Shown here: piece by piece, positions 6,014-33,742 of the stretch
How the letters are laid out: the number at the start of each line of letters is the position of its first letter
Position numbering within the stretch: the first letter of the stretch is position 1
NCBI RefSeq assembly: GCF_014698445.1
Contig: NZ_JACJSZ010000034.1
Location: 1-33,742 of the forward strand
Length of the DNA: 33,742 nucleotides
Source of the DNA: Microcystis elabens FACHB-917
GTDB taxonomy: Bacteria > Cyanobacteriota > Cyanobacteriia > PCC-6307 > Cyanobiaceae
Reading direction: 5' to 3'
Notes under the pieces: generated by a model
Told to the model about the DNA's origin: nothing
What the model saw: only the letters and a program-made list of their open reading frames with translations
Database searches by the model: none
Program-made: the position numbers and the translations under genes

Positions 6014-6097
6014 TGCGGATGGGGAGACTTGAACTCCCACGACATTGCTGCCACTAGTACCTGAAACTAGCGCGTCTACCAATTCCGCCACATCCGC
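6014..6097 (-). tRNA. tRNA-Leu (anticodon CAG)
   Basis: On the minus strand the acceptor arm GCGGATG pairs with CATCCGC, followed by discriminator A. The D-arm has GAATTGGTAGAC. The anticodon stem is CTAGT/ACTAG around loop TTCAGGT, giving CAG. A long variable arm typical of leucine tRNAs follows, then GGGAGTTCAAGTCTCCC as the T-arm. CCA is not encoded. It reads CUG, which is the dominant leucine codon of the genes here. Confidence 0.95.
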
Positions 6098-7595: not shown

Positions 7596-7677
7596 GGGAG
7601 CGTGCCGGAATTGGTAGACGGACTCGACTCAAAATCGAGCGCCTTCGGGCATGTGGGTTCGAGTCCCACCGCTCCCA
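7596..7677 (+). tRNA. tRNA-Leu (anticodon CAA)
   Basis: Acceptor GGGAGCG pairs with CGCTCCC, then discriminator A. The D-arm has GGAATTGGTAGAC. The anticodon stem CTCGA/TCGAG surrounds loop CTCAAAA, giving CAA, which reads UUG. The variable arm is GCGCCTTCGGGCAT, and the T-arm GTGGGTTCGAGTCCCAC is standard. It begins 12 bases after the murA stop and ends just before argD. Confidence 0.95.
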
Positions 7678-31981: not shown

Positions 31982-32181
31982 TCAGAGACGAAATTTCGGG
32001 TGTGCCGCAGCCGCTGCTTCCAAGCCCTGCCCAGCCCCACCGAGCAATCGCAGCCCATCCGCCACCGAGTGGATCCGCCCCAGGAACTGGAGCGGAGCTG
32101 GACGCTGCGGTTCTGGGTCGTAGATCAGGATGCAAACGGCCCGGAAACGATCGAAGTAGCGCCTGCAGATCGGGAAATCAA

Positions 32182-32210
32182 CAGGCGTGGTGAAAGAATC
32201 ACCACGCCTG
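32182..32210. repeat. Perfect 12-bp hairpin inside the pseudogene
   Basis: CAGGCGTGGTGA (32182-32193), loop AAGAA, then its exact reverse complement (32199-32210). No T-run follows on either strand, so it is a poor terminator. It lies 9 bases from the duplication flanking miniature element copy 2. Confidence 0.7.
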
Positions 32211-32218
32211 ATCGCTGA

Positions 32219-32226
32219 TTTCAGGT
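32219..32226 (+). repeat. Target-site duplication, left, of miniature element copy 2
   Basis: TTTCAGGT, identical to 32381-32388 and different from the duplication at copy 1, as expected for an independent insertion. Confidence 0.9.
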
Positions 32227-32380
32227 CCTGATCAGCAACAAAGCTCCGCACCATGTTAATGCTTTTTAACGCATAAAAGCAGATGTCCTGCGGAAACTGT
32301 CTTTTGTGGCCTTATGCGGCACAGGTCGGCATCCCTGAACGACGGCAAATTGGCACTGCGGAGCTTCGTTGCTGATCAGG
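32227..32380 (-). mobile_element. Miniature inverted-repeat element, copy 2 (154 bp)
   Basis: Same length as copy 1 and in the opposite orientation. Ends read CCTGATCAGCAAC inward on both sides. Seven substitutions and no indels separate it from copy 1 by hand alignment. An internal inverted repeat CGCATAA / TTATGCG flanks the centre, so the whole unit can fold. It is bounded by the perfect 8-bp duplication TTTCAGGT. Element plus duplication is 162 bp, a multiple of three, and stop codons inside the element end the interrupted frame. Confidence 0.9.
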
Positions 32381-32388
32381 TTTCAGGT
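32381..32388 (+). repeat. Target-site duplication, right, of miniature element copy 2
   Basis: TTTCAGGT, the exact partner of 32219-32226. Confidence 0.9.
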
Positions 32389-32679
32389 TGATTCGTCGAA
32401 CCGAGTTCCGCTCGATCTGAAAACAAGCGGATGCCAGGCAATCAACAGGATCCCTGATGCCGATGATGATTCGCGCCTGCGGCTGAATCGTTTGATCTGA
32501 TCCACGGAATCGATTCTCAGGGAGTAGCCGACCGTTCCATCCATGCGCCAGCGTTCTGTCGTGGCCATCCTGAAGTTCGCCATGCAGTGCTGGCACTCGT
32601 CCACACAGTCCGGTCCCGCTGCAGGGTATCGACAATCCAGAAGGCGAGAACTTCGCGGCCGCGTCCCGCTGGCCTGGCA

Positions 32680-32982
32680 TCACAGCAGCGCCTGCACGCT
32701 GGCCACCCTATCCTCCAGGGTCTGCTGGTCCTTGGTGGTTGATCCACGGCACTGGTTCCTGGTGCAGTCTTGCAACTTCGCCCCCCCGCAGTCCTGCCAG
32801 CGCCCGAGCAGAGGCGCCAGCTCTGGGAAGGAGCAGCCCTGATCGCAGAAGCAGCGGATCGCTTTCGCCGGCAGGCCGGTGTGCCGGGCCACCTCGCCGG
32901 TGCGCAGAAAGGGAGCTGGTGTCGCTGAGAGGGATCCCCGGCGGACCAAGACAAAACCCTCTACCGCGGGGTTACTTTCCAA
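32680..32982 (-). pseudogene. MerR-type regulator remnant
   Basis: The 100-codon frame contains LRTGEVARHTGLPAKAIRCF (about 32907-32845), the DNA-binding helix-turn-helix of MerR regulators (LxxGEVARxTGVxxxTIRYY). The rest of the winged domain, which should follow as xGLLxPxRxxxGYRxY, is missing and is replaced by CSFPELAPLLGRWQDCGG. No complete dimerisation helix is seen. Interpreted as an internally deleted regulator, possibly one of the polysaccharide or metal-stress type; nothing says which. It could still be a small expressed protein, but the missing wing argues against it. Confidence 0.45.
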
Positions 32983-33318: not shown

Positions 33319-33607
33319 TGCTGTCGAAGCTCCTCTGCATCCACGCGCTGTCGATCAGAACCGGAACGTGATGGATGAGAGCTGGGTCCATTGATGCACT
33401 TTCTCCGCTCACGCCTGTAGCCCAATGCTGCAGCGGCGCCGAGGATGGGTAGCGGACCGGGTACTGCAGCTGGCGGGACAGCGGTGGCAGTAGCCCAGGG
33501 ATAGTCGAAAAACCTATCGGGACTACAAAAAGGATTTGAGGGTCCGAATGAGAACGCAGTGTCTGCAGATCCCGCGACGCCAACACATGGAGCAGCATTG
33601 CAGAAGG
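33319..33607. other. Spacer with no recognisable gene
   Basis: Frames are open on the minus strand but their translations match nothing I know, and base composition is lower in GC than the core. The base before 33608 is the inner junction of the second IS66 copy; its 8-base flank is GCAGAAGG. Confidence 0.5.
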
Positions 33608-33742
33608 GTACCCGTTCAGGGGGCGAGATGGCTCATCTCGTACTTCAGCCCTGCTGAACCCTTGACGACAGCTTGATTCCCGGTTTTATCTCAGGCAGAG
33701 ACCGCCTGTGATGAGCAGCCCTCCTGCCGGGATTCCAGAAGC
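33608..33742 (+). mobile_element. Second IS66 copy, 5' end only (runs off the window)
   Basis: It starts GTACCCGTTCAGGGG and matches 1887-2021 read on the minus strand, with six substitutions in 135 bases. The transposase start codon is at 33711, encoding MSSPPAGIPEA as in copy 1. The rest lies outside the window, so whether this copy is intact is unknown. It points away from the core genes, as copy 1 does. Confidence 0.85.
33711..33742 (+). CDS. IS66 transposase, N-terminal 10 residues only
   Basis: ATG at 33711 followed by SSPPAGIPEA, identical to residues 2-11 of the corrected copy-1 protein. Truncated by the window edge; intactness unknown. Confidence 0.7.
   Translation, partial: MSSPPAGIPE

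Follow-up and report, generated by a model that had tools for sequence, protein, structure and literature searches.

The minus-strand reading frames on the two sides of positions 32219 to 32388 continue one another in phase across an inserted sequence, and this locus raises the question of what was inserted and what it landed in. The window, by which we mean the whole stretch of 33,742 nucleotides analysed, is contig C50 of a genome of 3.68 Mb in 121 contigs, and its genes have a picocyanobacterial look. Its insert (copy 2; 32227 to 32380, orientation taken as plus) has a length of 154 bp and is flanked by exact 8-bp direct repeats of TTTCAGGT, the target site duplication, at 32219 to 32226 on the left and 32381 to 32388 on the right. 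A 24-bp terminal inverted repeat, CCTGATCAGCAACAAAGCTCCGCA, opens it (32227 to 32250, plus) and agrees at 23 of 24 positions with either end of the IS1595 elements in the same genome; the 24-bp repeat at the right end (32357 to 32380, minus) differs from it by one mismatch. The other copy in the window, copy 1, was located at 1069 to 1222 on the minus strand, between 8-bp duplications of AGGCCCGA (1061 to 1068 and 1223 to 1230), and the two copies have opposite orientations, just as an earlier note on this DNA had said. With high confidence, we identify this insert as a MITE, a non-autonomous miniature element, belonging to the IS1595 family and lying in what is now a degraded sulfotransferase-like gene.

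Element and duplication together amount to 162 bp (154 + 8), and the minus-strand frames on both sides do share one phase, as the earlier note had proposed. After removal of these 162 bp, the minus strand shows one stop-to-stop frame of 187 codons, which holds a single stop inside when the element is in place. That the frame “rejoins perfectly” is correct as far as the phase goes, but it is mere arithmetic, 162 being 3 × 54, and applies to any copy whose duplication measures 8 bp. By itself, a joined frame of 187 codons is no evidence of coding here; the flanks of the copies on C33, C68, and C35 (C35b), which could be assigned to no clear gene, also give spanning stop-to-stop frames, of 179, 205, and 374 codons. 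Biological meaning should not be read into a “rejoined” frame, as any 154-bp element with an 8-bp duplication would produce it.

The upstream side of the junction gave more to work with. The piece running up to the junction (PQARIIIGIRDPVD...RRINLK, minus strand, placed at 32390 to 32491 by frame arithmetic) matches Pfam Sulfotransfer_3 (PF13469) with an E-value of 0.011 in one frame (0.011 to 0.02 for the piece alone). When the continuation in the neighbouring frame (32479 to 32577, minus) is fused to it, the E-value falls to 2.4e-5 with 25.1 bits, which does not reach the Pfam cut-off of 27 bits. Genus sulfotransferases, gathered by Pfam family, served for comparisons and profiles. A profile of nine sulfotransferases from related genomes scored 27.4 bits with both frames and 16.7 bits with the single-frame piece, and after iteration the two-frame upstream side reached 32.4 bits. 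Taken over two frames, the sulfotransferase match of the upstream side is significant. Since the match is best with the neighbouring frame added, the reading frame changes about 100 bp upstream of the element, at approximately 32479 to 32491. By tblastn, distant matches taking in the upstream piece were found in frames of 260, 264, and 271 amino acids in three other genomes (G020, G079, and G007). When the two-frame reading was compared with the sequences in the PDB, it gave two matches to ribosomal proteins (E 0.29 and 1.2) and none of relevance.

An intact gene at this site would be expected to begin with the P-loop of the family and to run in one open frame. None of the three minus-strand frames at the locus showed the P-loop end, which reads GTQKGGTT in the homologues, and a profile of seven sequences gave no match to the P-loop part in any of the six frames. 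Because of the frame change and the P-loop end not being found, we take the locus to be a pseudogene, and the proposal that copy 2 split an intact gene does not hold. Further upstream, at about 32680 to 32982 on the minus strand, LRTGEVARHTGLPAKAIRCFCDQG looks like a MerR regulator by eye; this stretch showed no Pfam match.

The downstream same-phase continuation (31982 to 32226, minus; SAIRRGDSF...) is more difficult to assign. No Pfam match was obtained for it, and the profile alignment from the upstream side extends three residues beyond the junction. By eye, its pattern RRYFDRF...LIYD...FLGR resembles the C-terminal part of a sulfotransferase. The idea that the two sides are remnants of different genes, so that the joined “sulfotransferase” was never one protein, is possible, though we consider it rather doubtful. 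In its favour, the downstream side did no better than shuffled sequence against sulfotransferase profiles: 45 of 300 shuffles, attached to the upstream part, were equally good, as were 68 of 300 with a wider profile. Its best matches moreover fall in a stretch of a protein that, judged by eye, could be an ABC transporter substrate-binding protein (best E 5.1e-5 per genome), and a profile of 12 such sequences gave 14.7 bits, with none of 300 shuffles and two of 3000 random window fragments as good, the one fragment shown being the same stretch. However, this match was picked from 400 genomes and had itself served to select the sequences of that profile, and we take it to be one chance match repeated in orthologues; it also stops short of the upstream side. 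The target duplication indicates that the flanks were contiguous DNA before the insertion, and an intact homologue of 264 amino acids (L129) aligns for 28 residues past the junction in one pairwise alignment, with 29.5% identity and 37 bits. We keep to the reading of a degraded sulfotransferase-like gene, whose remnant may reach past the junction.

The joined sequence had been called sulfotransferase-like in the earlier note, and this stands for the upstream side, while the downstream side is without a significant match. An uninterrupted orthologue of the joined frame, which the same note had suggested looking for in a relative, was not found in 200 other genomes of the family, in 387 other genomes of the class, or in a larger, overlapping draw of 399 other family genomes, in which the homologues were all distant, with about 31% identity. 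Joined queries of 85 or 108 amino acids brought nothing beyond weak matches, whether in genomes of the family and the class, in plasmids and phages, or in viral contigs; the sole viral match (L139) is short and lies in a frame broken by stops.

The genome carries at least 14 full copies of the element, copy 2 being one of them and every one of exactly 154 bp; the count is a lower bound, 40 of 50 first-look candidates having been scored. Against copy 2 as the query, the 13 other full copies gave E-values from 6e-76 to 9e-65 in this same genome, so that the repetition is far above chance. Pairwise, the 14 copies differ at zero to nine positions, five of them are mutually identical, and two additional pairs are identical as well. 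Eleven of the 14 show the exact 8-bp duplication; at the copy on C84, whose end is varied, it agrees at seven of eight bases, the copy on C89 is without a target duplication, and on C92 the duplication is cut off by the contig end. In every one of the 14 copies, all six frames are interrupted by one or more stops. Short, bounded by inverted ends and a target duplication of fixed length, without a transposase gene, and present in many near-identical copies, the element is a MITE. One copy (C67, L009), a single base off copy 2, lies shortly upstream of what resembles, by eye, a ribosomal protein S1 frame.

A long frame is split by six of the 14 copies, with the element in sense in three and in antisense in three. 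The lack of an orientation bias mentioned in the earlier note had rested on the two copies of the window; three against three among six agrees with it and still says little. The split frames comprise an IS66 transposase, a zinc-dependent dehydrogenase (C65), a type I restriction specificity subunit (C100), one frame each on C112 and C35 (C35a), with joined lengths of 623 and 603 codons and without a Pfam match, and the copy 2 site. Both insertions of the window had been placed in coding DNA; for copy 1 this is correct, while copy 2 lies in what is probably a degraded sulfotransferase-like gene. Copy 1 lies, in sense, within the IS66 family transposase frame at 225 to 1616 on the minus strand (PF03050 with E 6.6e-23 over 225 to 1061, zf-IS66 with E 6.5e-7 over 1218 to 1616), and an uninterrupted IS66 copy in the same genome (C34, L043) represents its empty site. 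The copy on C100 (L017) splits a type I restriction specificity gene (PF01420), and the 603-codon joined frame on C35 (L014) reveals, by eye and without a Pfam match, a DPPYYDN motif. With both frames split by MITE copies, this strain may lack an active restriction or methylation function.

For the dehydrogenase on C65, the test with uninterrupted relatives, which had been suggested for the copy 2 site, succeeds. In this genome, the gene consists of two parts separated by the element, with one stop (TGA) in frame, and in ten of 41 other genus genomes it runs uninterrupted across the junction with 91–98% identity; the remaining genus genomes display weaker homologues or none. A gene split in this species is thus whole in relatives. 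The empty sites also bear on the reading of the element as a structured RNA or a regulatory or palindromic repeat (REP/ERIC-like) that merely looks mobile. Both strands of the MITE do fold strongly, with −68.7 and −69.1 kcal/mol (z −7.3 and −7.4), but most of this structure comes from the inverted ends pairing with each other, which any MITE would show, and insertion is evident from the exact duplications at 11 of 14 copies together with the split dehydrogenase and its uninterrupted relatives. Duplications and empty sites already refute this reading as a full alternative, and we regard it as very improbable, although the MITE could still be transcribed. Least credible of all is that frame preservation is functional, the host making a protein with a 54-residue insert by stop-codon read-through like the Rickettsia palindromic elements: the net length is a multiple of three at every copy with an 8-bp duplication, just one stop interrupts frame −0 in all 14 copies and frame +0 in 13 of them, and the split dehydrogenase frame holds one TGA, but no copy is free of stops in any of its six frames, only six of 14 lie in a long frame, equal lengths are expected from recent spread (five identical copies), and with all copies at 154 bp and an 8-bp duplication, giving 162 bp, phase is kept wherever the element lands and no selection is needed.

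The near-identity of the MITE ends with those of IS1595 elements points to the machinery by which the MITE is moved. Besides the full copies, 23 loci with a single end were taken, of which 22 lie no farther than 560 bases from where a contig stops; ten are of one end kind and 13 of the other. With 16 of the 23 forming eight pairs with the same 8-bp duplication, and seven unpaired, we interpret them as the opposite ends of a longer element that the assembly does not bridge. A domain scan covered two of these IS-end stretches: one showed Zn_ribbon_IS1595 (PF12760, E 4.7e-14), with 46 bits against NF033547, under the cut-off of 75, and the second matched the IS1595 transposase NF033547 with E 2.6e-22 and 79.7 bits (cut-off 75). 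DDE_Tnp_IS1595 (PF12762) matches six times in the genome, three times at these ends (C110, C32, and C118), while no such ends were seen within the stretches taken around the other three (C74, C93, and C39). Over 24 positions, the IS ends of this genome show one difference from the left MITE end and two from the right end in its usual form. A complete IS1595 parent could not be read in this genome, the contigs breaking inside the element. A complete relative is found in another genus (G111), with 1050 bp, a frame of 318 amino acids, and the duplication TAATGAAT; it is about 78% identical over 464 to 468 bases to each of two IS pieces of the present genome. In three genomes of the genus (G566, G547, and G540), the IS ends equal the left MITE end at 24 of 24 positions. 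At two loci of the present genome (L043 and L041, on C34 and C52 of G000), IS1595 ends are followed immediately inward by IS66-type sequence, which suggests that the IS66 element transposed into copies of IS1595. With its 8-bp duplication and ends in common with a transposase-coding IS, the MITE is classified as an IS1595 derivative.

Both elements also prefer the same target. Among the MITE copies, the 11 with an exact duplication have CA immediately outside it at 13 of 22 half-sites, and the eight IS1595 pairs have it at 12 of 16, against a background in the window of 6.5%, averaged over the dinucleotide frequencies of CA and TG. Pooled over 19 sites, the favoured target is the palindrome (T)CA-W-N6-W-TG(A), CA-N8-TG being preferred by both. 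This shared preference supports a probable mobilisation by the IS1595 transposase, and it is the main reason, together with the near-same ends and the same duplication length, for assuming that one transposase moves both; very probably, it is that of the full-size IS1595. The MITE, having no coding capacity of its own, would be recognised at the shared 24-bp ends by the IS1595 transposase supplied from full-length copies elsewhere in the genome, and this enzyme would insert it at sites favouring CA-N8-TG, duplicating 8 bp. At 32219 to 32388, it landed in a sulfotransferase-like gene that was degraded then or has become so since. The genome thereby offers a clean pair of a mobile element and its probable driver with a sharp target preference, and the five identical copies are taken as signs of recent activity.

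The interior of the MITE gives a different picture from its ends. Against three IS stretches, the 106-bp interior remained at shuffle level, with 29, 135, and 45 of 200 shuffles as good, which rules out the MITE as a simple internal deletion of the IS parent found here; derivation of the interior from a parent by deletion, which a MITE does not require, is not suggested by the sequences. The full MITE was not found in 200 other genomes of the family, at most four candidates per genome being scored, or in 41 other genomes of the genus, scored for at most 20 candidates each, a number that fell below all candidates only in G000, G546, and G547 among 42 genus rows. Above chance, other genomes revealed matches to the MITE ends plus one stretch in another genus (G059; L084, C66, approximately 1001 to 1114), where 114 ungapped bases match MITE positions 9 to 122. 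It was the top match among 200 genomes (E 1.7e-5, calculated for its own genome), and the interior by itself reached a score of 50, where 500 single-base shuffles gave no more than 33. A second inverted end or a visible right end was not seen in this stretch, near which the contig stops. This stretch may be an ancient relative of the MITE, or the MITE may have drawn its interior from it. A scan with a 20-base core pattern of a collection of genome contigs, which may omit the window's own genome, gave four stretches; none of them contained the 18 outermost bases of the left end, even with three mismatches allowed, for which reason we take them as chance. One could go further and suppose that the MITE is restricted to this species, that its interior came not from an IS parent but from an unrelated sequence surviving, diverged, in G059, and that the IS1595 machinery captured and amplified foreign non-coding sequence with a net length of 162 bp that makes every insertion frame-neutral; taken as a whole, we find this proposal unlikely.

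In kind, the MITE is a clear example of an ordinary mobile element, and MITEs related to IS1595 are already in print. One of these comes from an archaeal host, Haloquadratum walsbyi. By its table description, the MITE of ISHwa6 (IS1595 family) has 165 bp, seven copies, an inverted repeat of 25, and a direct repeat of 8 (PMC3852290); compared with this entry, ours is likewise IS1595-related with an 8-bp direct repeat, but has 154 bp, 14 copies found, and 24-bp ends. Members of the IS1595 family are characterised, in the account given in PMC8101967, by 8-bp duplications, an N-terminal zinc finger in most groups, and DDE_Tnp_IS1595, and 8-bp direct repeats are likewise stated for ISApl4 in PMC12561309. 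The duplication length is the same here, the IS pieces of our genome share these domains and their ends nearly match those of the MITE, whereas the MITE is without a transposase gene. MITEs splitting genes are known in cyanobacteria, as described in PMC3542288 and in the review PMC10969869. Those of Anabaena sp. 90 are small with inverted ends, 15 of 147 split genes, and the authors noticed no similarity between them and the ends of that genome's ISs (PMC3542288); in contrast, an IS with nearly matching ends is present in our genome. Nezha (reference: Zhou et al. 2008) is likewise a small cyanobacterial element with inverted ends. The passage on Rickettsia palindromic elements in PMC10969869 describes them as about 150 bp long, inserted in frame, and translated; our MITE also keeps phase by its net length, but with stops in all six frames it leaves no open frame through the element. 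The excerpted text of PMC9208149 holds nothing on an IS1595 MITE, and no paper title in our literature search names this element.

Two further repeats of the window may be mentioned. Inverted copies of 136 bp (96%) lie at 1887 to 2022 and at 33607 to 33742, the sequence being one that adjoins the IS66 transposase, and because the contig stops inside the second copy, the right end of the window looks like an assembly break at a repeat. The positions 6062 to 6091 and 7602 to 7631 form an inverted match of 30 bp that looks like parts of tRNA genes.
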